From contig JAHJDO010000137.1 in assembly GCA_018812485.1 (NCBI GenBank), positions 1-39,868 of the forward strand: a DNA stretch of 39,868 bases, written 5' to 3'. Below the pieces are notes generated by a model. It made no database searches, was not told where the DNA came from, and was given only the letters and a program-made list of their open reading frames with translations. Numbering within the stretch: the stretch's first letter is position 1; every line of letters begins with the position of its first letter. This stretch comes from a bacterium (GTDB taxonomy: Bacteria > JAHJDO01). The position numbers and the translations under genes are program-made. Of this stretch, positions 2,550 through 39,868 are shown piece after piece.

Positions 2550-2552
2550 TTA

Positions 2553-8313: not shown

Positions 8314-8385
8314 TTTTTTATTACCCTCCTTCTTGTTTTGAATTATTTCTACATTACAACAAAAATAACCTCTTTTGTGTGCAAT

Positions 8386-9237: not shown

Positions 9238-9249
9238 TCATCCTCTTTT

Positions 9250-10152: not shown

Positions 10153-11453
10153 TCGAGTTTATCTTTTAGACGCTGTGCTTCTTCGAGAACTTTGATAGAG
10201 GTCTTCTCCCCGATAATTATTGATTGAATTCCTTTTCTTAAGACCTCTCTCACTTCATTTTTTTCTTCTACTTCTAAATCTGGTATAATCCTTTCCATGC
10301 CCTTGGCAAACTTTGCCAATACAGGTGAAAGTCCGTCTATCACATTTCTATTGGCAGACAGGGTATGGGCCTTTTCTACATATTCTATTTGTCGCTCCTT
10401 ATCCGTAAACCACTTTAAGAATTTTATGGCTTCTAGTTTCTGGGAAGATTTACCATTTACAGCAGCACAGATACCTGTACCACCAAACAAAAGCACCGGA
10501 TTCGCAGCCTCTGTATCTTGAGGGAAAGACATAACATCATATTCGAGGTCTGGGTTCATCTGGTAATATACATTCACAGCCCAAGATCCGTTCATCGCCA
10601 TGGCAGCCAGACCATTGGCGAAGGCTTGTTCTGACTGTTTGTTAGACATTATTGCTATCCCTTCTATAAACATCTCATTATCTCGCATCTCGACGAACTT
10701 ATCAAAAGCAGCCTCCCATTCTGGTGATACATATGACCTTTCACCTACCCAAGTAGCCCGCACATTATCTTCACCAAGAAAACTCCAGGCATAACTATTA
10801 AGAAACCACTCAGCAAGTCCTAAATCACCAAATCCAGCAGTAAAAGGGGCTATACCCTTAGCTCGTAATTTTCTACCCGCAGCAATAAACTCTTCCCATG
10901 TAGCAGGTGGATTCATTGGATCAAGTCCTGCTTTTTCAAAGAGTCTCTTATTATAGAATATTTGTATATTCATAACAGTCAACGGCACAGCATAAGTGCC
11001 GGGTATAACACCCCACTGATTTCCATCTTGGTAAGAGCCACGTTTTATTGCTTCTGGAAAAAATCTATCTTTCCATCCTTCTTCCATTTCGTCGGTTAGG
11101 TTAGATATATGTCCGGCATTTATATATCTAGCCAAAAATTCTCCTCAACCCCATACCCCAATAATATCTGGCAGGGTACTAGATAAAGCAGCTGCTTGCA
11201 ATTTATTTTTATAGAGATCCCCACTTGGAGAAGAGAGTACAAACTTCACTTTTACTCCGGTTTCCTCTTCATATTGATCAGCAAATTCTTCCAAGATCGA
11301 TTGCCTATCTGTCCACCAATGCCAGAATGTTATAAGAGGTTTCTTTTTTGCTCCAATTTCCTTATCTTTATCTTGACCACACCCAACGAACAATATGGGT
11401 CCCATAATAAACAGATAGATGACCAATATCCACTTTTTACAAGGATATACCAT
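10149..11453 (-). pseudogene. Extracellular solute-binding lipoprotein (CUT1 type), split by an in-frame TGA
   Basis: 11148-11453 and 10149-11144 are in the same phase and give a 434-residue binding protein, with one TGA (11147-11145) between them. The start is ATG at 11453 after GGAGG. The N-terminus is a lipoprotein signal (ILFVGCGQ, Cys as the lipid site; Phe at -3 is slightly off consensus). ITFWHWWTDR and LPDIIGVWG are typical of family-1 sugar-binding proteins. After the stop, GEFLARYINAGHISNLTDEM continues the same fold without a gap, followed by the usual WEEF...KLRAKGIAPF and AAMAMNGSWA segments. TGA is one base from GGA (Gly), which would restore the GG typical of this position. TGA is a true stop in neighbouring genes, so this is either a nonsense mutation or a sequence error. 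A TTG at 11135 could restart translation but without a signal peptide, so that product would not be exported. Confidence 0.8.
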
Positions 11454-11617: not shown

Positions 11618-14600
11618 TTACAAGCACACTCTATTTTTTTTGTGTCCTTTTATGATTCCATCAAGCTCGTCACCTGTCCCCGAATTAATCTCTTCGCGCT
11701 GCATAAAAATCATAAGGCCGATAGCAAAAAGTGTCCCAATTAATAAAAGAGGTAAACTTTTAATTGACATCCCAGTAATCAACATCAGTCCAACCGTAGG
11801 GAATCCAACCCAAGGGAGAACTAGAGACGGGGCCCAATTTTCCCGTTGTAAATCCCCATGAGGAAATTGGGATGTGTCCCTGATTTTTCTGATTTTTAGA
11901 TAGCCTCTTCTAACTGCCAAATAACCTAAAATCAGTAACCCTCCTGCAACAACAAACGCACCAATCCCAACAATAACCCACAGCCCCTCATGAGAACCAA
12001 GCCATGATAAGGCTGGTTGTATACCTTGCGTAAAGAAGTCCTGCAAGGGACTCACTTGCGTCTCCCCTAAAAATCGACCTAGTCCACCAAACCCAAAGAA
12101 ACCTGCAGCTTGAACAACAGCTGGCCTGCCGCCAGTAGGAGATAAACCCTGTGCAGCAAAAAACTCTTCTCGTCCTGGGCATCCTTTTTCAGTGTCACCT
12201 CTGCAATCCAAGGATTTGCAATAAGGGCAGTTTATACGTTCTCTTCCTATAGGACCTAATCCCTCGATAGTTTCGAACGAAAACTGCCTTCCAGAAACCA
12301 CTGTGCCTTGCGCAACTTGTCCATCAGCAAGAAACATGCGTCGTCCAAGATCGCATATTTCAAAGTTCATCCCAGGTGGCATATTTTCATTTACTACTGT
12401 ATTTGAATCTATCTCACCAGATCTTTCTAATTGCTTAAATCTACCCAGTCGATCCAACCATGCTAAGGTAATCTCCTCAGATTTCATGCCTTGATAGATA
12501 TAGGTTCTTATAGTATCAATCAAATCCGGTTCGTCTTTACGTTGAAATAAAAACAACCAACAAGCGAAAGTAACTCTAGGCCTATCTCCTCTTTGTATAT
12601 CGTTATATTCGGTAATTCTATTTCTAATCGCCACTGCATATTCACAATACTTCTCTACGCCAACTTTACGCATCCAAGCACTCGGCGCAACGCTTAAAAC
12701 AAATGTTCTCTTCCCCTCTCCTGACCCTAATAATCTCCCTAAAGCTCTATCCGTTACAGAACCTGGTACAAATACAGCAGAAAATATAGTTTCTGGATTA
12801 AATAAATCTACAACATCACTCGCATCTGTATCATAAATAATATCGTAATAATCTACAAAAAAGTCATTCCTGTAGGTCATAACCTCTGGTGCTCCTACTT
12901 CATCTTTTGCCTGTTCAAGCCATATCCACGGCATAGAAACAACCCTAAAGGTGGCTGCCATGTCACAGTGGTCGCATTGACTAGAACATCCATCCGTAGC
13001 TACAACTCTACTCTGTTCTCTTCTTATTTCAGCTACTTTTACTTCTTTCTGCCTTATATTATCTTCATATATCTTCTTCCTTTCCCCTTCCAATAAAGGC
13101 ACAAACCACATAGCAGGAGGAAGCATAACTGTTTTTAATACATCTCCGAGCAGTTCAGTACGAGTGCTATAAGCATTAACATACTGATCCATAGATTCTG
13201 TCTGTACAGCCTTTTCAAGTAACCTTACGGCATTCTCTCCTTTGGTAGATAATGGTGCTTGATAACGCTTAATCATATCAAGTCTTGCTGCAATGGCAGC
13301 CTCAAGAAAACCCGAGAAGTTAGCAAATTGACTTTGTTCTTCTGCTGGAAATGCTATAATTCTCTTAATGGCAGTATTTATTGCTGCAGCCTCTTTTATA
13401 AACTCCTGGTAAAAGAACATCTTCTTAGACCAATCAAGATGCAATGAATCGTAGTTACCTTCTCTGCATTCACTGATTATTCTATTGGCAATATCATCAA
13501 TGGATCCTGGAATATCAGAGGCATCAGGTATGTCTCTATAAGGAGCTGGAATTTCCTCTGGTACACTGGTTGATAGTAATTCATCTGTCTGTCTGGCTAA
13601 GACCTCCTCAGGTGTCAAGCCTAGAACCATTGCGACAGCCCTGATAGTTTTTTCTTCGGTAATCTTAAAGACGTTTAGATAAGTGAACCGACGATCGTCA
13701 AGCTGGGTTTTAACTAAAGATTCAACGGCTTCAATAACACTCATACCCTCCTCTCCATCCACCAAAGCCAGGGCGCCCAGTGATACAGGAAGTCCTAAAT
13801 CTCGAACCATGTCTCGCGCTTCATCAAGACTTGGAAACAGTTCAGGTCTTTCTTCTAGTCTCTCAAAGAATACCTTAAGGTCATCAATAGCAGATGGGCC
13901 TCGTTCTTGTAAAAATTGCTCGTTAAGTTGATCTACGGGAAAATCTCCGCTTTCAAGGTTTTCCTTATCAATATGATACAGTGCAAGCATTAATAGAGTT
14001 GAGATGCCAACCTGCTCTCCATGAAGCATTTTTCTACCCTGTGTCTGAACCTCCATACTGTAGGCAACGCAGTGATCGCTTCCAGCCTTTGGCCTTGCAT
14101 TTCTCGCACGGCTCATAAGCGCTGATATTCGCATAGCAAGTCTCGCTGATTCTTCAATGCCTTTAGGAGTATTATCCTTAATGATAGTAGCAAGAGAGCT
14201 CAAATCTTCTAACACTACATGGGCTTCTTCAAATATAGCTCGCTCCTCCTCAGTCATCTCAGTAACGCCAAGATGAACCGCTAACATCCAATCGAGCAAC
14301 GCTACCCAACCACTGAATAAATCCCCAGCCCCTGCAATATTACCTCTCGGGTTAAGTCTCATTAAAGATGCATCAGCAATGACTTGTTCAGCTGCACCTG
14401 TCATATAACTAAACTGCCGGAAATCATCTCCCGACCCGTCACGTATTAGTATATTAGGAGTAAAAGGTGCATTCGTTGAAGTCGCAGTCACAATAAGATG
14501 AACATTGACTCCGAGTTTATGACCGATGACTTTCGACCAGTCACAAACCGTACCCATACCAATACCTACCACTAAAGGAGGTTTATCAGACTGACCACTA

Positions 14601-17600
14601 TTCGCGGCAAGTCTTTTCTGTGCCTCAGTGTAATATTCAGTTACAGAGTCATAGTGAAGTTCCTTTTCTACGATAATGGCATCCTGTAGAAGTAGCTCTA
14701 CTCTTCGTTTAAGCCAGCCAATTTTGGCCCACTCTCTCATCTGCTCAGCTGTCTGGGGAGAAACAACTACAAGCACAGGCCTACCTGCTTTAACCTCTTT
14801 AATCAAATTCTTCAAATAACGGTTAAGGTATCTTCGATCTTTAGATGATGTTTCTGGAAAACCTTCAAAGGTAGGTCCCCGCTCTTTCCTAAATGTATAG
14901 TTTGTATCTCCTATATGCACATCTCCAGGGTCAAACCTGAATTCTTCTGCCTTATGTGGACTAGTGCCATTACGGTCAGGATCTTCTGACCACATCATAA
15001 AGTGGTGTTCATCTTCTGTTCTAGTCCGTAAGCCTGTAACACCTTTGACATCGCCCCCTTCTACTTGCATCCTTTTAGCTTTTAACGACTCGATCTCCGC
15101 TACCATAGCTGCCAATTCTTGGTACCACTTGCCAGCTAAAATAACAGATAGCTCTTTTGCCCCTTCTAATCTTGCTGTCTGGTTCCAACGCATCAAGATA
15201 TGCCATATTGCCCGTTCACTGCCTAATCTCTCAGAAAGTTGATTGATCAGGGTTTGGAACTCAGTATTTAGTAGAGCTTGTAATTTTTCTACTCTATCCG
15301 CTGGTTCTTTCAGAAGCTTTTGAGCCAAAGGTAAGAATGTATCTTGAGATATTCCTGATACTTCACCCTGGCTTTGGATAGACGTAATGAATTTTACATT
15401 GTCTCCAATCAACTTGTCTATTTCTTCCGCTCTAAACCATGTCTTATCCGGTTTCTCGTTGACAATGACAACATCGGGCGGATGGTCTTCATAATTAGCT
15501 GCTACTCGAGAATTCACTATCCGTTCTGTCTCTGGTTCAGAAACTCCCATAGCTCTCATTCTCTTTCTCCGGACAGATCTTTCTGATCTAACTTCAACAA
15601 ACAAATCTAAAAATTCAACGTAATCACCTGCTGGTGGTAACACATCTGTGGCTTCACATAATATTACATCAGCATCTCTATGTTGTTCTTCTATGTACTG
15701 ATAGCTAGGCCACGGTCGGTAACCTAATATATCCCAACTCGCCACCTTATCTGGTGCAGCGACTTGTAATCCAGTCTCTTCCAGACGTTCTTTCATTACA
15801 CGAATCAATGTCGTCTTGCCTACCCCACCTGCTCCTTTCACCATTACTATAAAAGGCCGATCAATCCCTGCTTCTCGATGTGCTCTGAGCTTCACCGAGA
15901 AGATCCGTGCTAATTCGCCGAATCCTGGGTCAATTTCCGCTACTGTCTGTGGTAGTTCACTAGGCAAGACCCCATGTCCAATAATTAGTGCTTCACCTCT
16001 TATACCAAGATTCATTCGTAATTTTTTTCTTAATTCCTTTAACTCTACTCTGCGTGCCAAATCCTCAATACCAAAATACCTATTCAGAACACGAACCATT
16101 CCCACCACTGTGTCCTTTGGTTCACCGAACTTCTCAGCTAAGCCTGATATATTCAAATCTTCTTCAGGATACCATGCAATCAAAGCTAATAGTCTTGCTT
16201 CTTCAAAATTTAAAATAATTGGGGTCTTTCCTCTAAAGAATCTTGACTCGTTATACGTACGAAATCTCTCTATTAGAAAAGCCATTCTCTCAAGCTCATT
16301 AAGTTGCTCAGAACTTAACACCTTATCAGCATCTCCTCCTTTCCACTTATTATCTACTAACCGACGAAGAGAGCTTTTCGCATGTTTAACGCTCTTTGTT
16401 TGCCTTCCTTCAATAACAGGTGTGTGACTATAAAGGGCATCAAAAGCTTCATCAAGCCGGCCCATCAATTTTTCCTCACGTTCACGTTCACGTCGTGCCT
16501 CTCTTCTTGCTATTATTGAAAAATAAATACTCAGATATACACCATGGTATAACACTACCGGCACAATACATAAAACCATCCATGTATAAGATATAATCTC
16601 ATTTAAAGCTCTAGGTAATCTTAATCCCTGCTGGGTTCTTTCCTTTATCCAGATTAGGTGTTGGATGGAGTTTCTGTATTGGGCAAGTGCTTTAGGGTTA
16701 ATGTGGATAGCTTTGTCTTTTGGACTATAGTAGGCGATGTGGTCTTTTGCATCATGTCTTACAAGGTCAGATTGAGTGAATTGAGGAATAAGCTCTGCTT
16801 GTTCTGATTTTTTCTTAAGCAAGATATCAATAGGCCCGGCACGTATCTCAGTATTCGGTAAATTATCAAGTGTACGACGAATAGATCGTGCCAAACTCAC
16901 CAAAAACCCTGACAACCCTAATCCCAAAACCAGCGCTACGTACGGAACTATATCAGGGACATCCCATCCACACGCAGCCTTTAAGACAAATGGAACAAGA
17001 CCAAGGATAAGTGTAGCTATAGAAGTTACATATAATTCTCCGGGTGTGATGTGGTGGGTCAAAATTGGTGTATTGCTATCTGCCCTAATAATACTAGGAT
17101 ACGTTAATTCAACTTCTTTACTTTTATCTCTACGAAAGACCTTCTTAATAAACATAATTGGTATCCTGGCCAAATATAGGTTCCAATAATATAGCGCTAA
17201 GGTCGTCCTGCCCCAACCAGGCACTTTACCCCAGGCTTTTTCGATCAAAGACTCCCATTCAAAGATAAGTAGGAAGGCCAACTTGTCACGCTCTGGGAAA
17301 AATATAAGACCAACCAGCATCTGAAAAGGCATTGTAAGATACGTTAATCCAGGTATAGGAAGAATACCAAATAGTAAAGCAACAGAAAAACACCTCAAAC
17401 GGCCCCACCAACTATAATCTTGTATAACAATTAAAGTAGTAACAGTCCTCCAAATAGCACTAGGTATCGCAAAGGCCCAGAGTCCAGAAAGAACATTGAA
17501 TTCACCGGTAATTACAAATATGCTACCCATTAAAATTATCCGCAATAACCAGACGACAAGTTTAGATGCTAACTGCACACCATATATCTTAATATAATCA

Positions 17601-20600
17601 CGAATAACTTTTTCATTCCGTAACCCCAATAATTTCTCCTGCCAAGATTCAGTAATCCTATACTGTTCTGCTCCTTCCTTGACCCAATCTTTGAAATCTT
17701 CTTCAGCCTCTTCAGAACGTTCCGTTAAGAACTTCATATCTGAAAATCTCATACTAACTACTGCTCCAACGACACTCCCAATAACTGAAACCACCAGTGC
17801 CCAAAAGAATTCCCTGGAAGGAAGTAGCGGCCATATCAATAACGAAAGCCCTATTCCTACAACAGGACCTACCATAATAGAAACTTGGCTGGTGAACTTA
17901 TCCACTGCCTCCTGCCGATACGTTCTGTCAACTAAAAAGTGATGGATAGGGCTTGGAGTACAGTAACTAAGCGCTACATTTAAGATAAACTGGCGGTTAT
18001 TCGGCCATTCAACCCATTCATTGACTTCTAGTACTGGGTAAAGGCTATTATATAAAGATTTTCCTAGCCTACCTTGGGCATGCATCTTATCAAGTTTTGC
18101 CTGACGGTAAGCATGCCAGCGTTCTTTAAAGAAATCGCTGTCAGTAAATAAACGACGCATTGAAGCTCGATAGTCTCTATTGCCAACCACACGGCCTACT
18201 ATAGGTATATGACTCTCACACCAATATAAGAAATATATTGGAGCAGGACAACTTTGCAGATAAGTAGCCATGCTACTGGAAATCCTACCTTCATCCAGCC
18301 AGTATTGTATATTGAACTCGCGTATAGCTTCCCGACGTGCCTGGTCACGGATAAAATCTAAGCCATAACTCCAGATATTAATCTGACGTCGTGAATTAGC
18401 TTCTTGTGCTTCTCTATATTGGTCAAGGTGCCAGAATAGTTCACGATAATCTCTAAGCGGCATGCTTATTTTTTCTTCATCAATATCATAATTTCCTGCA
18501 ACCTGATAATTACCCGAGATATGTCTCTCTGCAGCATCAACATCCATCGCCCCTAAATTAGGACCAAAACCTGCCTTCTTCATTTTACTTACAGCACCAA
18601 ACTCAAAAGGAAATAACCATCCAGGCGAAGTAACAATCAAAAAGACTAAGGCACAACACCCAGCCACATAAAATGGAATCCCACTAAAAAATGATGCCAA
18701 AACTACTAAACCTGCAATAGAGAGTCTCGGGACAAATGTTGGCCAAAGGATACCACCTAATGGTCCACCGCGCGGAAGTCCTGGCTCAAGGTCAAGAGTC
18801 TTTAAACCGATTCCTCGTTTTCCACTCCAGAAAATGTTATCCCAGGAGAAAAACGAACCACCGACAGAATGACCAAGGACAAAAAGAACTGTGACAGAAA
18901 GCAATAATGTTACAGGCCAAGAATTTGTAAGGAAAAATGTAGCTAAAGAAACCAACATTGCTGCTGTTATGCCTAATTGATACTTTATACCTATTGGCTC
19001 AGATGTACCAAATAAAGTCTTACCTATATAAGTCTGAGGTATATACCCCTCTGCACCAATATTCTCAAGCAACCTGCAAAAAGCACGCATAAAGAGAGCT
19101 TGAAGACGCATATCCTCATCAAGCAGGCCTGAAAAATAACCATACCGTGCAGTATTCACATTATCTTCCCATTCTAATTCAAGGAATGATGCATTATGTG
19201 CATCTGACCAACCATAAGCATTAGCCTGCGTTACAAGAGATGGCCCAATCCCATCTCTTAACTCTTGCAGTTTTCCCATTACGTCATTATTTTCTCCTCC
19301 ATAAATCGCGCTTGCTTCCTCAAGCATAAGCTCGTATATTTCAGGATATTTTGTAAGAATACCTGCAATCTTTCGCATAGAAACTGCCATCTGAGCCTCT
19401 TCCCTGCTTGGCCTAGCATCCTGAAATGCCAACATGCGACTTTGCCTATGAATCTTTCCATTTTTGCCAATTGGTCGAAATACCTTTAAGGCTACTCTCT
19501 CCTCAGTACCCTCTACCCTTGCCTCCCAAACCTGGGCAGCAAATCCACTTTGTTCAACCTGTCTGACTAATTCATACTTCCTTTTCTTCTCCACCCATTG
19601 CATCTTACCATCCACCTCGACAGGAATCTCTACGTTCAAAGTCACTATCTTCTCTGGCAGCCAAAGATTCGTATAGTCGTCGAGGAGATTTTTGACCAGC
19701 CAAACAACACCAACAGCAAGTGCCAGCGCCCCTAATACGATTGCCAAGTTAGGGATTCCCTGAACCCATTGTTTAGTAGCCTCCTCAGCAAATGGCTGTA
19801 CCTGATTGAGCACACTGGAGCCACCCAAAGCCATAATCATTGCGTTTGTTTTTCTTCTTATGAAATCATCATCATATTCTTTAGCACCAGTTCTTCTTCT
19901 TGTAGATGCTTTTATTTCAGAATCTCTAGTCGAAGAAATATTCCTATCTGCTAATCCAAATACAGCAGGAACGAGGGCATCTCTCCGTTTAGTAGGCACA
20001 AGCCCCTTTGGTACCCCAAAAACTTTGCACAATCCAAATATATATGTTCTTACACTATTAGGTTCTAACCCCGTCAATCTAGATAGGGCTTCTCTGGAAA
20101 GATGTGGACTCTGATTCAAGACCTCAAGAATCCTTAATTGACCCGAATACAATTGCCTGTGGACCGCTGGAGGAAGACTAAAACCTAATAATCGTTGAGC
20201 AGCTTCACCTTCTTCCAGTAGACCATTCTGCCTGAGTTTACTCCTTAACGAACCTTGATGAAATGGAAACACTTTTTCCTTACATGTAGCACGGTAAACA
20301 CTTATATTGTCCTCACTCACTCCATACCTCGCAGCCATTTCACCATCGGATAATATCCCATGCACAGTCCAATAAAGAACAAGCGCCTCCATGGCACTCA
20401 AAGGTGGCTTCCCAGCAGTCAGGACATCACTTCCTTGCTGCTCTCTAGCCGGCCTCAAAGGATATACAAGAAACCCATGTTCAATGAGCCAGCGATGAAT
20501 TTCAACAGTGACCTTGCAATATATGCCCCTGGATGGTATTACCCCGCGTGCTAAAAATAGCTTTAAAATTGTCATTTTATGTTCGGATTCAGTTTCTCTT

Positions 20601-23600
20601 TCTAGTCGAATTTTCCCTCTTATACCAGAAGCGTAGTAACTTATCGATTTTAGTGCTATGTAATACGTTCTGGCTATTTCTTCATACCTTAATCCACGCA
20701 GGAATCCCTCGAGTATTTCTTGTTCCTTGGTTTCCAAAGGTGATTTTACCATTCCTAAAATACCTGCTTTGGTGAGCTTCTCCCGTGGTGAACCACCTTC
20801 CCAAAGAAGCTTATTGTTGAGGGTACCTAATATGAGGCTCAACGTTGTATATTCCAGACCTATTTCTTCTTTAAGTCGTTCATCAACCCATCCACGAAGG
20901 AGTCCAATAAATACCAGTCGCTCTTCTTGAGTAAGCTTTGCAGCTAAATACCCTGTAGCCACTAATGGATCGTAAGCAGAATCCGTCGAGCCAGGCGCCA
21001 CTCTACTACCATCCGCTCCAGACGTATCTTCAGTGAAAGCCCTATCTCCTACAACCATTGCCACTCCTATGGGTAAGGCAGTCAACACTGTACTGCCCAG
21101 CGACATCAAGGTAGGGCTGTTTATACCTATCAAAGCCAATCTTTCCAGCAACATCATAAGGAGAGAACTTACTGGTACAGTAAGAAATTCTGGAGCAAAC
21201 CATAGAATCAATATAACAAACGCCGTAATTAAAGATAGGGCGGGAACTACAAGCAAAAACGTAACTCGACTGACCCGTCTCAAAACAGTCGTGCACCGGT
21301 CAAATTTCTTTGATGCCGCATCGGGACCAAATAATATTTTCCCGATTCGATAAAAAATCGCAACACAAGACAATAGAAATGTAAGAACGCCTATGGATGC
21401 AATAAATGGCTGAATATTGGTAAGTGTAAAACTATATAGAAAAGCGCTAAAGTCAATAATATATGGGACAATAGGCTCGATAAGGAATAGCATTGCAGGT
21501 ATTGCCAGCCATAAACTCCATGGGAGAAAACGCATGGCTCGTTTAGATTTCTTCAGCGTTTCTTTTATTTCTTCTTCCGTATATGAGAAAAATGCCGTAT
21601 TTAATGCATTTTCTACGCTACCCAATAATTTCCTTATTAGTCTATCATCCTTAGAAACATTCTCACATATTTCATTTAATACCTTAATCTTTATACGTAG
21701 TTCATCCTTCTCTGCATTCATATTACGAACCGCTTTGATAGTATAGCGGTATATCAATCCAAGCGTGAGAACATAGTAACCTGTCAGTATAGCAACGAAG
21801 AAATTTCTGGCTGAAGGAGGAACCATGGAATATAACAAAAGGCCAATGCCCGTAAGAAATAAAGTGCGGATAGTAGACGGATGTCTAAGGAATGCTGAAA
21901 GCTTTTGGGAAATGATAGACATCAATATAGTGACGCCAAGCAAGCCCAACACCCCAATCCCAACCCAGTGTAAAGTAGTTAAGCTGCTCTTAAACTCACT
22001 AACAGTCTGCCAGATAGCCGAAAGATCCAACTGCTGTGGCACATACTGCGTCAGTCCTGATAAAATAGACCCGGAATCAAAACCAAAATTAAAATCAAGT
22101 TTAAAATCAGTGCGATTGAAGATATCGGTACCAAACATGTTTGTCAATCCACCCAGCGTAAGGCCAGCGAACAAACTAATAGGTTCATATTCATCCAAGG
22201 TCAGTTCCTCATACAGTTCTTCATCCTCACGAGGTTCCCTTTTTGCGCTATGCATGGATACTAATGGTAAAAGTGAAGGTACTATTGCTTCTTTATCTCT
22301 CAATTCCTTTTCTCGTCGTAACGTTTCAAGTCTCTGATTCAATGCTTCAACCTGAGGCGTGTTGCCTATAAGTATGGCTATTTTAATCATATGAGTAAGA
22401 ATATATATTTTTTGATCTATATCCTCCAATCCAAACTTATAGGCTACTGACCATGCGTATCTTGCTTCTGCTCGAATCTCTCGATCTAAAGATCCTAACT
22501 TATCAGGATGTTCAGGATATTGGTCTACTACCCAGTCTAAAAACTCAGTTATTCCCCCACCTGGACCTAAAAGATTATCAGGGATACTACCATCTTCTAT
22601 GGCCCGGTTAATCTTTTCAATCAGTAAAATACGGTCTTCCGCATAAAGAGAGATAAAAAGAATTTTCAATGCATCTATATCCCCTTCTGTTATAATATCT
22701 CCACCTTCATCTACCGGCCCAATAATCTGCCTCTTTTCTTTCAATCTCTTTACAATCTCAGCAAAATGCACTATATCAACTCCCCATTCACCTGTTACTG
22801 CTTGCGTTTTTATGTCTACTAAAGATAAAACCTCTTCTGCAGTCACTTTGATCTGGTTCTCTCTTAACCTAACCAAAGCATCTTTTAAATAGACAAATCC
22901 AATCTCCTTTACTAAAGATAAAAACTCTGTTTCAGTCACATAGAGATCTCTCTCTCTTAACTCATCCAAAGCATATTGAACAGGGACAAATCTACTCTCC
23001 TTTACAGCCAGCGCATTGACAAGTTCTCTGTTCAACTCCCATACTCTTCCTTCTCCCCCTGACCTTGCCACCCTCTTGGCGCTTAAAGCTCTTTGATTAT
23101 CTTTGTCAGTTAATAAATACGAGTGCAGTTTAGACCTACTCCAACCGAGTGTCTCGTGAAATGTTTCCACCACTTCGCGAAGACGCACTCTCTTCGCAGA
23201 TTCACTTGTTACCTCGTATGAAAAAACCCACCCTTTCCCCTCTTCTGGTATTTCAGCATCAAGGTCGCCTTGCCTTGCCCATCGCTGTACACTATCGAGT
23301 GCCCTATTTATGATTTCTGCATATTCAACATCAGTATGGTCTCTCTCCTCAACTTCTCGAATCGGAAGAAGCAACAATCCTTCACTGAGTCTTTCAGCCA
23401 TCTCTGGAGTAAACTGGCCTTCAAAGATGGCGTCCATAACATTAACTTTTTCCCCACCTGACTCTGTGATAATATATTGCCTAGGCTTCATTTTTCGTGT
23501 CGAGGCAAATAGCCATATCCCGCCACCGAGCAAGGCAGGTTTGAGAAAATCACTGATTGCATTAGCCTGGTTATGCGGTAAATTACCCGACAGGATAGAA

Positions 23601-29600: not shown

Positions 29601-32600
29601 TTAAACATAAGTTCATAAAATCTCATGCGGTTTTCTATTATTAAAATAGTGTTGTTTCTTGTAACATCGCTCATTCCGGGTAATAAAGAGCGCACCCTCT
29701 CTATATCCAATCCATAGACAAGGCTAATAATCTCTTGGCTGACCCGTTCTAAACTAACTGTATTTTGGGAATCCGTATATATCTTTAACATGGTGCAGAG
29801 CGCTTCCAAATGTAAAAGAGTATCTTCTTTCCCTTCAGCTTCTTTAATTACACATTCCAATAAGACTATCTTATATTCAGCAGGATATTGCTCATTAGCC
29901 ATAAAGGCGTGCCAACTAGTAGAGGAGTCTATACTAAAATCACCTCGCTCACTTCCTGCTAAAATCTCTGAACCTTCATTTAAACAATCGTATTCCCAAT
30001 CTTCCAGTATCCCACTTTCAACCCAATCAGTCCAATTTTCGGCACTCAACCTTGATCCTTCACCTGACGCTAATCTAAAAATGCCAAATAAAAACATGGC
30101 ACGGCCATATACTGGTACTGCCGTATCTTTTAAAAACGCCTCTATTGCTGGCCTGCCTTTTTCGGTTAACGTCTTTACACGATCTACTACCAGCCATTTT
30201 ACATCATCGACTAATGCTACGATTCCCTGAGTAAGTTTTGTATACTGGGGTAGCCCCATGCGCTCTTCTAATTTTGTCACACTTGCACCTGACCTAAAGG
30301 CAAGACCTAAAATACCGCCGAGCTCTTCCAACGAATAGCAACTAACCTCATCAGGTGTAATTAAATCAGCTAAAGTTTTATCTACTCCTTTTATCCCTAC
30401 AGGGGCTTTCTTAACTCCAAGAAGGCCGACAAAAAGCATCCTTACTGCAAAATGATATTCTCTTGGACTCCTGCTTCTATCAGTAACAATATGGTTTCTA
30501 ACATAACTTTTAGCCGATACTAACCTCTCCTGTAAAGACACCCTACTATCACCAGATATCGCAGCGTCGAGCTTTCCAGCAAAAACTTTATCAAAATAAT
30601 CTTCTTCTTGTAAGATACTCTCAAACTCACTTTCAGATACGGCCAATGCAGAAACCGTGCGGCTGAGATAAGGTAGAGCAACTGCCAAAGGAATCTCGTA
30701 GACCCTGAATTCCTCTATTACTTCTCTCAAATTTACTATTGTTGTCATACGTGGATATCTGTTAGAGAAGACAAATATTAAGATCTCATAAAGAAGAACA
30801 TCATATCTTCTTTTGTGCAATGAAGGTGTAATACGTTTTTGTAAGGCCGCGACTTCAGATCCAGACAAACCTAACCTTCTCTGGATAACTGCGATTACTG
30901 TCTCAGGATCTGGTTTCTTTCTGTCCTGAGCCAACCCATTTAGATATGTTTCTATGCTAATTAAGCCATTTATAAGCTTATTGAACTCAGCATGCCAATC
31001 TCTAATTCTAAATAGAAGTTCTTTTCTTTGCTCTAATTGTCTTCTATAGGCAACATCAATAGCTTCATCTCCTTCTATAAAAATAAGTTTTGGCGTTAAA
31101 AAGCTGCTTATCTCTTCCTGGCTATATACTCCTGATTTAGCGAAAAAGGTTAGCGCTTTGACCAAGCTATCTTTTAAATCTAATCCTGCAACGCTTTCAA
31201 TACTATGGCCTTCAGCTATTTCTCGCACTAATCTTGATAAGCCAATAAGCCCGAACACCTGAGAGACAAGATGCCTTATCTCCAAAGACAACTTTCTACT
31301 CAGGGCAGTCTGTCCACCTTTACCTACAAAACTGGCCATTGCCCAGCCCCTCTTAATTTCTAGACCTGCTCTTTGAAAAACACTGGGGTCTTTAAGATCT
31401 TTTGCCCAACATAGATATGCTGCATCCAAAGGTAAGCTTTCTGTGAGAGCATCTCTTGCCAAGGAATAGCCCACAGATATCATCATTATAGTATCTTTAT
31501 CAGTAGCTATCCCGTGAAACTCCCTGCTTAGATCACTCAAATCCAGACCTGGAGATACTGACCCGTTAGAAACCATCCTTATTCTGCCATCAGTTAGAAA
31601 CTCTCCTAAAAAGTTCTCTTCTCTTACTTTCGGATGCTGGAGTAATTCGCTCAAATCTCTTACATCGTAATTATCGTCGATTGGCCCCTCGTTAGCTGAA
31701 ATAACTACCTTGTAGCCGAGTCTTAAGACCTCCCGTACTAAAACCATATTATAGATGACCTCTCCGGCATTATTTATATTGAAGATTACGGTCTTATTTT
31801 GTCTCTCCCCTTCTGGCACTACCAGTAATCGCTCGACGATATCCTCTGCCTCATCCACGGCTATGTACGCCTTACTTGCAATTAAATTTAATAGTTCATC
31901 CGTAATTTTGCCCTCACGTATAGAAGCAACAACTGAGCTGAATTTTCTTACTGCAAAACTCAGTTCATCATCCGCATCCTCTGGTATAAACCTGTCAAAT
32001 ATACTGATATTGGACAATGCAGATATCTTTATGGCTAGCTCTAACCTCTTTCCGGCATCCTGAGTTTTATCTAGAGTACCTATTAAAACCTCTGCAACCT
32101 CTATTACCTTTTCATCTTCTTCTCTCTTTATCAGTTGAAAGGGTGACTTTGCATAGACCCAGATAATCTGTCCAATAAATGCCTTAACCTGATGTAAAGT
32201 AAAGTCATCTAACATCGGGTCTTTAACGACCATTTCAATCGTTTCCATAATTCTATCGCCAAACTCATCAGTAAATTGCCTATCTTTATTCAACCTTAAC
32301 AACAAGTCACTGGCCACATAAACACCCAACCTTGCCTGCTCTAATAACATATCGATTACCTTCGCTTCTTCACCTGCTCTTTTAATCTCACCAAAAGATA
32401 AATGCCTGGCCCTCCTACTAATTAGACTAAAACGTGAAAGAGCAGCCCGGTCTCTACATCTTACCCCCATTATGCCTTTTTCACCTTTCTCTAACGCAGG
32501 ATCAACAACAAAACCAATGATCTCTCTTCCTTCAGGGACACTCCCATAAGGATAAACCTGCTCGTCCCGCAATAACGGAATATCATCAATGTTAACTCTT

Positions 32601-35600
32601 GGATAGAATCTGCAATTTGCTGCCGTAACCCTTGATAACTTACATTCTTCCTCTACCTGTGTATCAACTAAGTACACAAGCGGATTAAGCACCACATTTC
32701 GTCCAACTACAGTCTGGCCTAATAAGACAACGTGTGAATGTATTACTGTACCCGGCGCTATTTCAACTCCATCAGCAATATAAATAGTGCTGAGTTCCCC
32801 CTCTATCCTAACGCCGTTAGCTACGAGTTTATTATAAAGGGTTTTATTGACAGAAAGTGGCTGCAGGCCTATTGTCGCAAGACCCATAGTGGACATAACT
32901 TCTCCGGATCGTCCACGACGAAAACGCTTTTCATCTGGGCCTCTACCTATAATCACTCTTCTTCGAACTTTTTCTCCATCTCCAATCTCGGCATTAATCA
33001 GTACTGCATTTGCAACACGGCAAGCTCTGCCAACTGCTGTCCCTCGTCTAATGACTACACCACCTCTTCCGTCTATATGCGTATCTTTTCCTATAGCACA
33101 TCGGCCTAAATAAATCAGGCCAGTCGAGGCATCTAAAACAATCCCTTTTGATTCAAAACAATCTGCTATGCCTTCTACTAAAGGTCCCTGGAATTCTTCA
33201 GGATAAATATAAATATTTTCGTCACCCATAATAGTTACACCTTTTGCTCTTAAAACTGCTATAAGGTCTGGCCGGTCTTTCAGACAAACTGTCTCACCTG
33301 AAACCTCTTTATCTGCCATTATTATATCTTCTGGTCGTATAGGCAGATTAACCAGCAGCAATGGTGAGTGAGAAGGGATGTTTTGAAGGCCCCATACTTT
33401 TAACGAGTCTTTTAGTGTCAAACAATGTATACATGCTTTTTCACGCCACTCGCCCTGCCATAGACTTTCCATATTACCCTGTCCCATGGCAAAGACACAG
33501 ACAGTATTTTCATCATTATATTCTCTTAAAAACTCTGTGCTTAAGTCAGCAGGTGGAGTGGCAAACATAGCTGCACCGGACGAAATCACCTTAAGCCGCT
33601 CTTCGCCGTATTTCTTAAAATATCCTCTTTCTCTGAATTCTTCGAGTAATGATTTGCTATCCTCTCGAGTCATATCATTTATTACAGGTACATCGCGGCT
33701 GGCAATAACAACATTAAAACCAAGTGCTAATAAAAATCCAACCAGTAACATGACCAAGACTGTCTCGCCTGCATTGTCAGTCAATATGATTATCTTGGGC
33801 CGTTTGCTGTCATCAATCCTCTCATCATCATCAGACCAACCATTATTTTCTTTTACTCTTTCAAATTCCAATTTGGCAGCGCCTACGATCTCAAAAAATT
33901 CATCAATGTCGCTCTCGTAAAAGCCTTTTTCAAGCCCCTCCTCTATCTTATCTACCATCCATGCCTTTTCATCAAACCCTGCTTCTTGCGCCTCTTGCTG
34001 GAACTTAGGGTCACCGAAATCCATAGCATTTGCTATTGCACAAAGCAAAGACAACCTCTCCAATTTTCTATGCATCCACACCAACCTGCGTATATAATAA
34101 TCAGGCTGTTTCAGAGTCAAATCTGCTCCGTATCTATCCCAGAGCTTTTGCACTACTGGAAGTTTTTCTCTATACGCACCTAAAGGAGAGCTCTGAACAT
34201 CTTCAGGAATATCCCATCCTGAGAACGGTTTTAACTCATCATGAAATGCAGAGAATATTTCCAACGCTGCCGAATTCGCCCTGTATTTTTCCATCTCAAA
34301 AAAATCTTCCAAACCAAATATCTCCTGCCTCAGCCTTTCTGCTACACAGTATAAAGCAAAAGTCGGCTTAGCTACATAAGTAGGCTCGTAAGCCATGGCA
34401 AATATCTCTGCATAGAAACGACACATCCTGCCGTAAAAATCATCTTCCCTATTAGGTATACGTAACGAATCAGGCCGCGGGGAACCTGATGGATACTGTA
34501 TATCCACTAAATCAGAAATCGCCGCATACATTGACTCTTCTATACCATGGACCAACCCATCCCTTTCTCTATAGGTCTTTACATTGGGCATGTCCTGGCG
34601 CAGAGACTCAAATCCCTTATTTAATGCGGAAAGCAACGTCTTAACTTTATCTGTATCTTCTATTAAAGCAGCAAAACTTTGTTTGAACTTTTCTTTATCC
34701 ATTGGTGCTTGACTATAATCCTCTTCTGATAAGATACGGCACCTCTTTTGCCATAGCCTTTCCAGATTTTCCTCTGAAAGAAAATCATCGAGAAAGTCAT
34801 CAGTATAACTTTCTCTTAACTCTTCTGGCACTTGGTCCCTTAATCCCTCAGGCAATGTCCTTGCCATACTTACATATGCGTCAATAAATAAGTCTACAAC
34901 TGCCTGTTCCTTTAACGTGAGGCCTGCATATAACTCTCTTAGATAACGACCGCGTACATTTAGAGGTAAAAATGTCCAGTGGCCGCTTCTCAGAATATCA
35001 GCCATACCTCCGCCTGTGCCAGTATAAAAAGGCGTTCCCAATATTCTCTTAATGATCGAGCTTTCACTTGTAACACGCTCCAGGTCCATCAAAAGATAAA
35101 CTTCTACTCCCTCAATAGTCAATCTTAAAATATCACCTGAGCGAGAAACGTCTTGCAAAATAACCAGCATCATTTCTTCTGGAATACTCCCTCTAAGATC
35201 TTCAGGCATTTCCTGCCATATACGATCAGCTGTTACATGTACACCTTCAATAAATGTCTCTCTTAAAAATCTTAAAAATCCGTCCCTTAACTCAAGAGAT
35301 ACACCAGAAGGAATCCTTTCTTCAGGTGAAACCGACTGGGTTTCAGTCTCCCGGGTCCTATAAGTATGAAGGACCCGAGTTATTAGAATTAATGCTGCTA
35401 TTACTATGCCTGTTACTATAACAACCGCCAGCAACACTGCTAGTATTGCCAATACCCCTTCCTGATTCAACCTCACCAAGTCAGATGCCTGTTCAAAGAA
35501 ACCCTGGAGAGTCGGCCAGCTAGATGAAATGTCAGGAAAATCCTGAGCTCCTCCAAGAAAATTCGGCAACTGGCTTAAGGTACTGAAACCACTAACAGCT

Positions 35601-38600
35601 GCTAAGGTTTCAGCTACACCTCCGGGTTGTCTGACCTCTCCCCATTCCCTCATAATACTTCCATCCTCATTTCTACCTAGCAATAACGGCAATTCTCGAG
35701 GGTCTCTATAAAGTAAACCTTCTTCCCCATCAAGCCTACCTTTTTTCTCTTGAGTTCTCTTTAACACAAAGGCTATTACCTCTCCAGCATCTAAGTCTTC
35801 TATCCCTTTACTAACAAGCGCCTTTTGAAGTTCGCCCTGAACAGCCCTGATCTCTCCACCTTGAGGTACTGTGTAGCGCCCTTCGGCTGTTATAACTCCA
35901 CACTCTTTCATCGCATCCATTACAAGCCTTGCCCTTCCGTCAGTATCGCCATTTAATAAGCCTACTACAAAATCTCCCTGGGCAATTGCTCCTTCACGAT
36001 TCCACGGGTGACTAAGAAAAGCATCATCAATTATTTTCCTATTTTCAAGAATATACGGCAATAACGCCATAAAAAGCCATGCCTGATGATTAGCTAAACG
36101 TCTGTCTGAATCCATTGAATCTCCGAAACCATATTTCGGATCATAGTTGCCCTGTGCTACATACCAAATAAAATCCAGGTAGACTTTATATGCTATTTCC
36201 TTAAACACAGGACTCGTTACTAATGTTAACCCAGCTGAATAGGCCGACGCTGGCAATCCTTCTGCCAAGAGTTCTGAATCTCTATTATTTGCAGCTATAC
36301 GCCTACTTCCTATAGCCCCATACCTCTCAATAGCTCTACCATTATCATCATGCACCAAATAACAACTTTCAGACCGCGCAAGAGGTTCTCCCATTTCTCT
36401 CGCATCTCTATCCTGCAGTACAACAAGCTGTTTTAATGATTGTTGCATTAATGGATGGGTCTTTAATATATCTATCAATAAATACGACAATGCCCAAGCA
36501 AACGTAGTACCATCCCACGTACCAATATGAGAATCTTCTGGCAGAGGCACTTTCTCCGGGTCCACCCATCTGCAAAGATGAGTAAAGCATTCCTCTGGCA
36601 CATATCCAGTAAGTATACCAACTATAATGGCCAACAAAACCTCGCTAATCATATCGTAATGAGCATTCTCTGGAATTAAAAATTCTCCTTCTCCAGTAAG
36701 CAATCCTCCTGTAAAAAACGCTTTATTATCCCCATTATCCTTTCCATCATACAATATATCCCATCGCATCTCCTGCACTGTCCTATCAAGCCGTTGTACT
36801 ATTCCATCTATCCTGTCCCTATATCCAGGGTAGCTTGAAGATATCTCCCTCAAGAGTCCCATTGCTTGTATTGCAAATGCTGCATAAAGTCCTGAATCTA
36901 CGGTCGATACCCAGAAACCTTCTTTTTCCTCTCCTTTTATCCATCTCGTTTCTTTACATGGCTCTCCTTCGGCAGTGTACCACTGGAAAGAAAATCCTTT
37001 ATGTTTCGTAAGTTCTTCATACCTTTTCAAAGCATTATCCAGCCTATCAAGTGCATCATTCACATCATTTTCAATGCCTGCTAAAAGACCTCCGAGAATA
37101 ACGATAAAGAATCCTCCTATATTCGTCGGTGATATTTTACGTTCCACATAATATACCTCACCATCCGACTCCATCTTCTCTACAGAAACACCTGCTTCAA
37201 CAAGAGAAATAACATCATCGCCAAATTGCAAACATATAGATCCGGTCCCTTCATCTTCTCTTATAACCGAATCCGGACATGCCGGGTTTTCACCATCAGT
37301 AAAATCCATAAAAAACCTATGAGTGGATCTCGCTATCTCTCTAAAAAGTCCTTCTGAATCAGGGCGGCCATCTTCGCTCCTCCAGTGTTTTATATACTCC
37401 CGCCAATCCTTAAATCCTAACCCCTGTAATGCCTCAATAAGCTCATCTTCCATCTCTGCATGGCGAACAACGACATCAATCACATCGCGGATAGTAATCC
37501 TCCAGTCACTCCTCCATTTACCCCAGTAGTCTGGATCCGCTGCTTCACGGCGTAATAATTCAGCAAGAAGTCCAGGCTCTGAACATACTAAAGCCCTAAC
37601 TTCCTCTCTATCTTTAGAAGTTGTAGAATAATAAGTTCTACTATCTCCGCTAGAGTCAACTCTCCTCATCTGACTGTATGAATAACCTTCGTCTCTGCTT
37701 CTACCTATATCACCCAAAGCATAAAGTGTTCGATGCAAGGGCTCATCTGGATTGACAGAGTGTGTAGTTCCAAATATCTGCCCTTCTACAGGAAACTGCG
37801 TAGGCCCCCTAAACAGGCAATACTCCACATCCGATGATGCGGTGTAGACAATAACCTCCCTGACTTGTTCCGTATCATTAACTCTTGCTTCCCTATCGGC
37901 CTTGCGTTGATAAATCCGACGCACCTGAATAGCTAGTAATACCAACAACGCCACCACCCCACCTATCAACACGCCCACCGCTAGAGTCTGCCAGTTAATG
38001 GAGGAAGGGCCTAAGCCTGGCACATGTTGCGTCAGTCCTGATAAAATAGAACTAGAATTAACTCCTGTCAGGGCCTCCTGGGCATTATTTAAAATTGCGC
38101 CTAGTCCAAACAAACCTGCAGCGAATGAATGAGAAGGTTGAGGAGTTTTTTCGGCGGGTTCACCGGGTGCCATGGTGCAAGAAAATCGTCTTTCCAGTAA
38201 TGGGAGAACATCGAAAAGTAAAGCCCCAGGTAATTTACCTAGAATCCCTGCACATCTGGTTTGTTCTCTGTCTGATAATCTCATTGTGTTCCCGAAAACC
38301 TTTCTAAGGTAGGCATTCATTATCTCAGCGATGCGCCTAGATTCCATGCTCTCCAAAACCTGCGTTGACCATATCGAATCGCCTCTGGAGTCAAAATAAT
38401 CAAGGATATCCACAACTAACTTAGGGGCAATTTGCTTAATACTCAATAATTCTGCTACAAGATCTATGTCACGCCTTGTTAATTGTTCCCCTAAAGAATA
38501 ATCCAATGAATATGCTTCAAGGCTGCTATCAACCCTTCTTAACACTTCTCCTAAAGAAGCGACTTCCATCCTCTTAAATATTATTCCCAGACTTCTATCT

Positions 38601-39868
38601 GAAATAATCCTTTGTCCTTCTCCGTCTTGGCAAACAAAGATACTCCAAGCCAAGTCTGGTCCCAGTCCACTGAAGATCGAGCCAACATTATCTAAAACAT
38701 CGTCATCTTTAACTTCAGAAACCAGATCAAAGATGTAAGCAATCATCTCTACTTCAAGTCGAGATATAAGATTAATGCTGCGTTGAATATCATGAAAGAA
38801 TGCAGCCATTAATACCTCCTGTACTTCCGGGAGATCTATGTATCCGACTAGTCCTGAAATAAGTTCTTGATCAACGCCGCGGTATCCTGAACCAGTGGCA
38901 GTACAAGATGTCCATAATCTCTTAACCAAACTTTCAAGAGAGGTATGATTAGCGCTACTGCCAGCACCTCCTAAAAATTTCCACATTGAACTATACGTCA
39001 TAGCTGCAGCCTTCTGTTGATCGAATCTAGCCGTAGCTTCATACATCTGTTGACTGAATCCAGCCATAGCTGCACGCATCTGTTGACGAACTCTATCCCT
39101 AGATTCATCCATCATTTGTTGATCGACGGTATACATAGCTGCAGCTCCTGTATCAAAACCTGGCTGACTTCCTCGTGTTGCTGAGGAATGAGGCTGCCAT
39201 CCCATCCAAGAGGTTGATTGATTCCGGCGAGTCGAGGAGTAGCTACCATGACCTAATCTATCATATAGTGTTCTATTTTCTTCATCCCCCAACACTTCAT
39301 AAGCTTCATTGGCTTCCCTAAAGCGCGCCTCTGCTTGCGGATTCCCTGGATTTACATCAGGGTGCGTTCTTCTGGCTATTCTACGATAGGCTCTCTTAAT
39401 TTCCTTATTGGATGCAGTCCTATCTACTCCTAAAACATTATAATAATCTCTACTACTGCCCACTACCGCACCCACCAAACCAAGGCCAAGGGGACCCAGC
39501 ATCATGCTAAGCCCGCCAGGACCTAACACCTTATCTAACAGCTCACTTAAGTATGGAGCAGCAACCGCTGCACCTACAGCTGTTATTGCAATAAGTACGA
39601 TAAGGCACCCAACTCCGCTACGTCTTCCTACCGTAAAAACCATTACAACAGTCAACAATACAAGTACTGCCACAATAGCTATTCCTATTGAGTCTGCCTG
39701 ATTTAGTGTAGGGGCTACAGCTTCCAACGCACCACCGCTGCCAATAGAAGAAACTATGCCTGAAATCTTCTCTGCTGCTTTAGGGCCCCATAACACAATA
39801 GCCCCTGCCGCAGCTGCTAATCCGACTGTTATCTTACCTAAAGTACTACTTCTACTAATCCTCTCACA
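11618..39868 (-). CDS. Giant multidomain membrane polypeptide, at least 9,416 residues (N-terminus outside the window)
   Basis: A single open frame without a stop from 39868 to the TAA at 11618-11620. The GTG at 39796 is the first conventional start codon inside the window. However, the 24 codons upstream are also open and read into a hydrophobic segment ([17 protein letters not shown]) that a start there would cut, so the true start probably lies beyond the edge. Residue numbers here count from that GTG. Recognisable modules in order: J-domain (114-186), glycoamylase-like (about 886-1253), DUF89 (about 1770-2183), hexapeptide beta-helix (about 2225-2421), second DUF89 (about 2436-2861), HEAT-like helices, LuxR HTH clusters (about 4504-4803, 5113-5253, 6284-6618), kinase-like N-lobe (about 6728-6906), P-loop NTPase (about 7933-8133), glycerol-1-phosphate-dehydrogenase-like (about 8323-8616), radical SAM (about 8913-9210), then membrane helices. 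Numerous transmembrane segments lie between modules. The overall function is unknown. Whether it is one protein or is cut into parts cannot be seen. Confidence 0.9.
11834..11872. repeat. Imperfect palindrome inside the giant gene (REP-like)
   Basis: CCCAATTTTCC (11834-11844) and GGAAATTGGG (11863-11872) are reverse complements apart from one extra T, with an 18-base loop. The outer flanks (AGAGAC at 11824 and GTCCCT near 11882) extend the symmetry with one mismatch. It is read in frame as part of [20 protein letters not shown] between two membrane segments. Confidence 0.55.
12170..13060 (-). other. Domain: radical SAM in the giant protein
   Basis: Residues about 8913-9210. The cluster motif [13 protein letters not shown] supplies the CxxxCxxC triad (C8937, C8941, C8944) for a 4Fe-4S cluster that cleaves S-adenosylmethionine. 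Near the end, [13 protein letters not shown] and KGCPG give four or five more Cys, which may hold an auxiliary cluster or zinc. The substrate is unknown. The membrane cassette [18 protein letters not shown] follows directly. Confidence 0.8.
13950..14830 (-). other. Domain: glycerol-1-phosphate dehydrogenase-like (iron-ADH superfamily) in the giant protein
   Basis: Residues about 8323-8616. [19 protein letters not shown] is the NAD(P)-binding GGGTxxD signature, and [13 protein letters not shown] is the usual PTxxSTDG-type loop. The three metal ligands expected for the family are present: D8492 in [10 protein letters not shown]8575 in GSDHC and H8592 in LHGEQVG. Relatives (archaeal EgsA, bacterial AraM) reduce dihydroxyacetone phosphate to sn-glycerol-1-phosphate. 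The intact ligands suggest a working enzyme. Related activities such as 2-deoxy-scyllo-inosose synthase are possible but fit less well. Confidence 0.8.
15400..16000 (-). other. Domain: P-loop NTPase / nucleoside-kinase-like in the giant protein
   Basis: Residues about 7933-8133. The Walker A motif is GAGGVGKTT (G7988 to T7996), preceded by the hydrophobic strand FIVMVK. The strand [14 protein letters not shown] fits a Walker B-like position, and [18 protein letters not shown] and [13 protein letters not shown] resemble the lid region of uridine-kinase or zeta-toxin-like small-molecule kinases. The substrate is unknown. An HTH-like segment lies just upstream (about 16,080-16,200). Confidence 0.65.
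19080..19615 (-). other. Domain: protein-kinase-like N-lobe in the giant protein
   Basis: Residues about 6728-6906. [20 protein letters not shown] and [11 protein letters not shown] look like the beta1-beta3 strands of a protein kinase, with the ATP-anchoring Lys at K6771. The usual Gly-rich loop is poorly kept, and I find no HRD or DFG motif before the next membrane segment (about residue 6930). It is best read as a pseudokinase or kinase remnant. Confidence 0.45.
19716..19847 (-). repeat. Linker/TM cassette repeat 1, copy A
   Basis: This 132-base stretch matches 23835-23966 over its full length without gaps. The match includes an identical 17-base core (19762-19778 versus 23881-23897). It encodes [19 protein letters not shown], then [20 protein letters not shown]. 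Confidence 0.85.
19945..20945 (-). other. Domain cluster: four diverged LuxR-like HTH units in the giant protein
   Basis: Residues about 6284-6618. Units start at [60 protein letters not shown] and [20 protein letters not shown]. Each is followed by a second helix pair (for example [18 protein letters not shown] and [20 protein letters not shown]). They are more divergent than the 26-kb cluster, so DNA binding is uncertain. Confidence 0.6.
21056..21128 (-). repeat. Linker/TM cassette repeat 2, copy A
   Basis: 73 bases align without gaps to 27932-28004, with 14 identical bases at the centre (gtcaacactgtact). It encodes [18 protein letters not shown]. Confidence 0.85.
22038..22069 (-). repeat. 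Linker repeat 3, copy A
   Basis: 32 bases matching 38019-38050 with two differences. It encodes [12 protein letters not shown] ahead of a membrane segment. Confidence 0.8.
23835..23966 (-). repeat. Linker/TM cassette repeat 1, copy B
   Basis: Partner of 19716-19847. It encodes [19 protein letters not shown], then [20 protein letters not shown]. Here the upstream LANRN adjoins NAMIM almost directly, whereas in copy A about 30 extra residues lie between the equivalent LADRN and NAMIM. Confidence 0.85.
24040..24460 (-). other. Domain cluster: two LuxR-type HTH units in the giant protein
   Basis: Residues about 5113-5253. The first unit is degenerate ([20 protein letters not shown]...RLIVDKLK). 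The second is canonical ([19 protein letters not shown], then [19 protein letters not shown]). The linker [12 protein letters not shown] between them resembles [12 protein letters not shown] in the 26-kb cluster, which shows shared ancestry of the units and their linkers. A Rossmann-like stretch ([20 protein letters not shown]) lies upstream. Confidence 0.75.
25390..26285 (-). other. Domain cluster: four tandem LuxR-type HTH units in the giant protein
   Basis: Residues about 4504-4803 hold four consecutive GerE/LuxR units. Their cores begin [60 protein letters not shown] and [20 protein letters not shown]. Each is followed by a recognition-helix-like segment (for example [17 protein letters not shown] and [19 protein letters not shown]). 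LuxR domains normally occur once, at a response regulator's C-terminus. A membrane segment precedes the cluster, so it must face the cytoplasm if it binds DNA. Confidence 0.85.
27932..28004 (-). repeat. Linker/TM cassette repeat 2, copy B
   Basis: Partner of 21056-21128. It encodes [18 protein letters not shown] in the membrane-rich part before the LuxR clusters. Confidence 0.85.
29170..31200 (-). other. Region: helical repeat segment (HEAT-like) of the giant protein
   Basis: Residues about 2866-3542 are soluble and almost entirely predicted helical. Near the end lies a HEAT-like signature, [20 protein letters not shown] recognise no enzyme motif. A Lys-poor acidic stretch ([12 protein letters not shown]) closes the region before the next membrane cassette. 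Confidence 0.4.
31215..32490 (-). other. Domain: DUF89-like, second and divergent copy in the giant protein
   Basis: Residues about 2436-2861 repeat the DUF89 layout: a helical first half, then [39 protein letters not shown] and a further Rossmann-like part. The first metal-binding Asp of the DNAGE motif is Asn here (N2675), and the GQGN loop is not evident. This copy may therefore be catalytically impaired or may bind metal differently. DDNYDVRD keeps acidic residues at the second site. Confidence 0.6.
32535..33125 (-). other. Domain: left-handed beta-helix (hexapeptide repeats) in the giant protein
   Basis: Residues about 2225-2421 carry repeated hexapeptide-type turns such as [32 protein letters not shown] and, clearest, [20 protein letters not shown] followed by [20 protein letters not shown]. 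The pattern resembles the acyltransferase half of GlmU. No nucleotidyltransferase half is present. It sits between two DUF89 copies. It could be an acyltransferase or merely a structural coil. Confidence 0.75.
33250..34490 (-). other. Domain: DUF89/ARMT1-like, first copy in the giant protein
   Basis: Residues about 1770-2183. An all-helical first half is followed by a Rossmann-like half containing LTDNAGETV (D2007, N2008), [22 protein letters not shown] and [14 protein letters not shown]. These correspond to the metal-binding Asp/Asn, the ND.T..D motif and the KGqGNfE-like loop of the DUF89 family (metal-dependent phosphatases acting on sugar phosphates or damaged metabolites). The metal ligands look intact, so this copy could be active. 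Confidence 0.7.
36040..37140 (-). other. Domain: glycoamylase-like (NdvB-type) domain in the giant protein
   Basis: Residues about 886-1253. The sequence has SPTNIGGFF, then [68 protein letters not shown] and YGFGDSMD. This order of motifs is that of the DUF3131/glycoamylase-like (alpha/alpha) barrel found in cyclic beta-1,2-glucan synthases and related exo-glycosidases. Whether catalytic carboxylates are retained cannot be judged with certainty. The preceding 250 residues are soluble and unrecognised. Membrane cassettes flank the module on both sides. Confidence 0.7.
38019..38050 (-). repeat. Linker repeat 3, copy B
   Basis: Partner of 22038-22069, about 16 kb away in the same frame. It encodes [13 protein letters not shown] ahead of a membrane segment. 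Confidence 0.8.
39240..39456 (-). other. Domain: DnaJ J-domain in the giant protein
   Basis: Residues about 114-186 read RDYYNVLGV, then [20 protein letters not shown] and [20 protein letters not shown]: all four helices of a J-domain, with the invariant HPD at 145-147. Such domains stimulate DnaK/Hsp70 ATPase activity. Two hydrophobic segments (residues about 36-95) precede it, so it is a membrane-tethered J-domain that should face the cytoplasm where DnaK is. No zinc-finger or C-terminal DnaJ substrate-binding domain follows. A Gln/Met-rich helical stretch comes next instead. Confidence 0.93.

Follow-up and report, generated by a model that had tools for sequence, protein, structure and literature searches.

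The window analysed here, the whole of contig JAHJDO010000137.1 (39,868 nucleotides; contig C137 of genome G000), shares with a second contig a giant reading frame that is genuine and continuous in both, and which probably belongs to an Omnitrophota giant gene of more than 10,184 residues, whose accreted modules would form a membrane-tethered multi-enzyme scaffold. The window would hold the 3′ 28 kb of this gene, read as one polypeptide. The gene would have grown by accretion and shuffling, its enzyme, chaperone-like and DNA-binding modules being connected by membrane-anchor linkers, of which some are copies made within the gene. The modules may be active, and the membrane may keep them together as a multi-enzyme scaffold that acts on envelope glycans and on sugar or polyol phosphates.

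On the minus strand, to which all the modules and linkers described below belong, no stop interrupts the frame between the contig end at 39868 and the stop at 11618 (11618..39868; 9,416 codons, 28.2 kb). Its 5′ end lies beyond the contig, so that no start codon can be assigned. Among named genomes, a scan retrieved near-identical DNA (99.99% identity; 4 mismatches and no indels over 39,868 bp) in JAHJHC010000041.1, a contig of 55,211 bp from Candidatus Omnitrophota bacterium isolate Modern_marine_glass_biofilm.mb.96. The two contigs could represent either independent samples or two assemblies of one sample. In the longer one the frame reaches 10,184 codons (30.5 kb) and is still open at the contig start, and the N-terminus of the chain is absent from both. 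The single chain proposed in a preliminary description of the window is thus upheld and prolonged. Given this base composition, 10,184 stop-free codons have a probability of about 10^-313 by chance, and the other two forward frames contain 883 and 908 stops. When scored against the codon usage of neighbouring genes, frame 0 came first in all 20 blocks of 500 codons, which argues against a hidden frame switch. Moreover, nothing suggests internal genes with starts of their own, since in-frame starts with a strong Shine-Dalgarno sequence are fewer than in synonymous shuffles (6 observed, against 14.2 +/- 3.3).

Most of the domains listed in the preliminary description found support in searches against Pfam, NCBIfam and the PDB. 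The J-domain (39260..39448) is a clear case (Pfam DnaJ, 4.8e-25), with the HPD motif intact in the translation, and it may recruit DnaK and aid the folding of the chain. The segment first called glycoamylase-like (35978..37675), a relative of the Pfam family 'Glycoamylase', proved to be related to the GH189 glycosidase domain of cyclic-glucan synthases. On its own it matches the solved synthases at 7e-6 (phmmer against the PDB); with its free-standing homologue L156, which matches PF10091, included in the profile, 8wy1 is reached at 1.7e-36, a figure that leans on L156. The predicted structure of this module is poor (pLDDT 41.8).

The succession of DUF89, beta-helix and DUF89 was also recovered. 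The first DUF89/ARMT1 damage-control phosphatase module (33440..34354; Pfam 4.8e-38) keeps the metal-binding D, N and D, at the positions that we take to form the triad of the ARMT1 family. The hexapeptide left-handed beta-helix (32627..33103) stays under the Pfam cut-offs (Hexapep 5.6e-4, LbH_EIF2B 2.2e-5), yet is consistent with GlmU-type models (NCBIfam GlmU, 8.7e-10). The second DUF89-like module (31487..32287; PF01937 match at C56:9887-10660) has diverged, with 29% identity to the first over 107 columns, and is degenerate, as both Asp of the triad are replaced by Asn.

In 270 genomes, the PF01937 matches form two classes: those in ORFs near 300 aa mostly score above 140 bits, and those in ORFs of more than 1,000 aa (48 matches in 41 ORFs, counted by hand from the table) all score below 180. 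These low scores led us to expect decay of the active site in the embedded copies. However, the triad is kept in 13 of the 14 first copies scored in giant ORFs, and decay holds only for the second module, which lacks the triad in both the window chain and its relative in genome G169. In a phylogenetic tree, one branch separates the 14 embedded copies from 37 free-standing ones (support 98/96), and the split persists (97/82) when the five longest rows on the embedded side and three long ones of the outgroup are taken out. Because long branches meet on the embedded side, we limit our claim to this: the embedded copies are not recent recruits from the sampled free-standing ones, and the tree falls short of showing a single origin.

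Seven LuxR-type HTHs are supported further along the chain, in groups of four, two and one. The first array (25415..26272) comprises PF00196 matches at 26105-26272, 25910-26032, 25643-25789 and 25415-25576; the second (24065..24427) contains two, one of them below the cut-off; a single LuxR/GerE HTH follows (20588..20737; 1.5e-8). The arrays of four and two that had been described therefore stand, and the last, described as another four, is reduced to one HTH and a marginal second. The region around residues 5000-5090 of the chain (P0001; window about 24600-24870), which precedes the second group, resembles a degenerate receiver domain, and given this stretch the HTHs look as if they came from NarL-type response regulators. 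They may provide DNA or regulatory contacts.

The C-terminal part of the window chain carries three more modules. The P-loop module (15389..15922) carries the motif GAGGVGKTT and gives a weak match to AAA_16 (8e-5), and its homologues are found in other giant ORFs (18,187, 44,856, 9,541 and 4,033 aa). The assignment of the next module (13562..15010) as glycerol-1-phosphate-dehydrogenase-like (G1PDH-like) is confirmed by NCBIfam (PRK00843, 5.1e-22) and by the PDB (7e-16; 4rgq at 2.8e-16, with SDH and LHGEQ aligned), and the two His of the metal site are kept. It scores far under the equivalog cut-off of NCBIfam, so that the match does not fix its substrate. The last module (12119..13573) had been called radical SAM. 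Its CxxxCxxC [4Fe-4S] motif (near 12965-12988) and C-terminal Cys cluster are invariant in all five copies aligned, and on this motif a radical SAM identity is probable; profile and fold searches stayed below significance (one homologue gave PF04055 at E=0.2; the fold search, with a model of low to moderate confidence, pLDDT 57.6, had no match at E<0.001). The kinase-like segment, for its part, finds no support: no protein kinase was matched by Pfam in the chain, and the PDB gave CK2 only at E 0.48.

The chain had been described as membrane-threaded, and a simple hydropathy scan indeed finds about 56 hydrophobic segments in its 10,184 residues. The linkers between modules consist of a Gly-rich stretch, a loop, a transmembrane (TM) segment and a basic flank, an organisation seen in linker a (37898..38137); the others are b (35318..35635), c (28913..29167), d (23768..23998), e (21878..22192), f (19658..19882) and g (11873..12127). 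Repeats at the DNA level (81-86%) join three pairs of membrane segments, among them linkers d and f (145 nt, 81%) and linkers a and e (44 nt, 86%). Net positive charge (inside) follows the TM segment in six of the seven linkers, a pattern incompatible with serial single-pass linkers. A helical-hairpin model gained no support, the proposed short partner helix being no more hydrophobic than background. The idea that the linkers form a phylum-wide cassette was rejected, as they had no match among the other giant ORFs compared.

Such similar linkers, some of them recent DNA-level copies of one another, between modules that look separable as enzymes, are also what one would see in a polyprotein, translated as one chain that proteases then cut at these linkers to release the individual enzymes. 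We consider this unlikely, though it is the best of the alternatives: no conserved cleavage motif is seen across the linkers, the Pfam scan shows no protease module in the window chain, and in the relatives from G169 and G364 TM segments are nearly absent between modules.

In favour of the membrane-tethered scaffold, key residues are conserved in the first DUF89, the J-domain, the G1PDH-like and the radical-SAM-like modules. The membrane-bound assembly line coupled to transcription control, envisaged in the preliminary description, may yet apply to the chain. Sugar-phosphate chemistry is favoured because a 5,842-aa ORF of another Omnitrophota genome (L119, G257:C72), whose contig is open throughout, carries PMI, GHMP kinase, DUF89, CofD, ROK, Fe-ADH/G1PDH-like, SIS and HAD modules. 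Enzymes within one chain, of course, need not belong to one pathway. Against a scaffold stand the degenerate second DUF89, the weak scores of the beta-helix and P-loop, and a radical SAM assignment based on its motif.

A different function has been proposed for the giant protein of Ca. Velamenicoccus archaeovorus (an ORF of 39,678 aa; Seymour et al. 2023, PMC10066038), namely that of a surface or predation protein, and attachment and predation have been associated with Omnitrophota giant ORFs (PMC10066038). In that case the window chain would be exported, its modules acting outside the cell or on a host. The G169 giant does begin with a signal-peptide-like segment, and it adjoins an outer-membrane-barrel-like gene, a homologue of which (45% identical) lies downstream on the window contig. 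The modules are, however, mostly of cytosolic type (J-domain, G1PDH, radical-SAM-like, LuxR HTH), and the Pfam scan finds no adhesion domain in the chain, which leaves this function rather improbable here.

The region downstream of the giant ORF (1332-11135), as read from its translations, encodes parts of an ABC sugar transporter, a ROK regulator and glycoside-active enzymes. One of the four differences between the two contigs lies near 11147 (near 31027 in JAHJHC010000041.1), in a sugar-binding-protein gene. The frame of this gene reaches less far upstream in the window than in JAHJHC010000041.1, probably through an error or because the window holds a broken copy.

How did such a chain arise? 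Across 285 Omnitrophota genomes, strong matches to the C-terminal modules occur in ORFs as long as 57,756 aa, and the modules also exist as ORFs of about 350-440 aa. The giant ORFs with recurring modules measure 57,756, 44,856, 22,400, 18,187, 9,075, 7,588 and 5,842 aa. Free-standing homologues, which it had been suggested to look for, are present in the same phylum for the DUF89, G1PDH, radical-SAM-like and GH189-like modules. Relatives lie within giant ORFs both in G169 (48% identity over about 1,060 aa) and in G364 (34%), and the whole DUF89-helix-DUF89 block of G169 is 46% identical over 1,380 columns. In G169 this block forms the C-terminus of a 4,565-aa ORF, whose N-terminal part is unrelated to the window chain. 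In G364 a piece matching residues 8452-8545 of the chain (61%) precedes the DUF89 block. The order in the window chain is the opposite, with the counterpart of this piece several thousand residues downstream of that block. The 1,380-column block is kept in relatives while its surroundings and the order of modules differ. The search for the same domain order in other genomes, also suggested beforehand, thus came out negative even between relatives.

Two side observations concern other large proteins. The 4,134-bp contig C87 of G000 (L041) is open from end to end, contains a DUF89-like stretch and seems to belong to a further giant gene. In several large or exported-looking proteins (G078:C96, G078:C128, G078:C56:51216-55022 and L156), LR[VI]P comes after an initial signal-like segment, possibly as a sorting or processing motif in this lineage.

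The unstable order, the degenerate DUF89 copy and the weak conservation of several modules would also fit a neutral accretion, in which shuffling enlarges the gene and the majority of modules are passengers with no joint function. We judge this improbable, as distant relatives keep their open frames and active-site residues. Selection is also apparent at the codon level: between the G169 and window ORFs, codon positions 1, 2 and 3 differ by 0.39, 0.29 and 0.54, and this concentration of substitutions at third positions points to protein-level selection. These comparisons indicate modular accretion under protein-level selection and not error-driven loss of stops. The earlier suggestion of separate genes fused by stop loss keeps its first half, since accretion and free-standing homologues agree with it; the accidental loss does not hold. 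More tentatively, it is possible that the Omnitrophota giants include a class of membrane-tethered multi-enzymes, drawing on a private, shuffled pool of cytosolic-type modules that evolves within giants, rather than on repeatedly recruited free-standing copies.

An artefact, in which stops vanished through assembly or sequencing error or through recent pseudogene decay, could draw on the contamination of the MAG that contains the window contig, estimated at 4.93%, and on the contig end that cuts the gene, but it is very improbable: the contigs are in agreement, neither the coding signal nor the selection is disrupted, and both giant open frames and codon-position bias persist in relatives.

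The contamination estimate of G000 bears rather on the origin of the contig. Among the relatives of G000 in its phylum (n=5 genomes in the group), no giant ORF matches the DUF89 and G1PDH/radical-SAM segments, and homologous giant ORFs are present in genomes of the Omnitrophota MAG's own family. Other contigs are shared by the two bins. A 2,143-aa ORF of G000 contig C53 is also found in the Omnitrophota MAG (G078 contig C96), where, from the translations, it adjoins genes resembling DnaG primase and a sigma factor, and G000 contig C19 matches JAHJHC010000041.1 just past the window portion. Since the J-domain proteins of G000 and the Omnitrophota MAG differ, these are different organisms with common contigs. 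One signal is mixed: a flanking glycoside-active gene has a relative with 41% identity in G004, of the genus of G000. We infer that the window contig is probably Omnitrophota DNA misplaced in the G000 bin, a contaminant; a MAG bin can hold giant-gene contigs from another phylum.

The combination of modules had been presented as unknown, and this is true of its exact order, which is not kept even in relatives; its kind, the Omnitrophota giant ORF, has been described (PMC10066038). Like those ORFs, the one reported here exceeds 20 kb, belongs to an Omnitrophota genome, encodes multiple predicted TM helices and is poorly conserved. Unlike them, it carries many recognisable intracellular-type enzyme and LuxR modules and no adhesion or dockerin domain that we could find, whereas most published giant proteins have few annotated domains (PMC10066038). 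The giant genes of Omnitrophota and relatives reported by West-Roberts et al. 2023, of up to about 85,800 aa, are discussed in terms of cell-wall degradation, according to the account of them in PMC12057145; the likeness here is that of an Omnitrophota giant gene. The gigantic lipocone proteins of Omnitrophota (PMC12419801) likewise combine TM segments with enzymes of polysaccharide biosynthesis and with signalling and methylase domains, but no lipocone domain is seen in the window chain and its module set differs. The glycosidase module is related in sequence to the GH189 domain of cyclic beta-1,2-glucan synthase (NdvB/Cgs), whose glycosyltransferase and phosphorylase partner domains were not found in the window chain. 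PKS/NRPS megasynthases, with many enzyme modules in one chain, serve as a working analogy only, as the Pfam scan of the chain shows no carrier-protein, condensation or ketosynthase domain. In conclusion, giant ORFs are a known trait of Omnitrophota, and what is new here is the choice and shuffling of modules. To the question of what giant proteins do in these uncultured, possibly predatory bacteria, the window chain and its relatives bring enzymes that can be recognised and whose active sites are conserved, several of them of sugar-phosphate type, with modules that can be tested singly, and so a testable idea of what the giant genes of Omnitrophota consist of.
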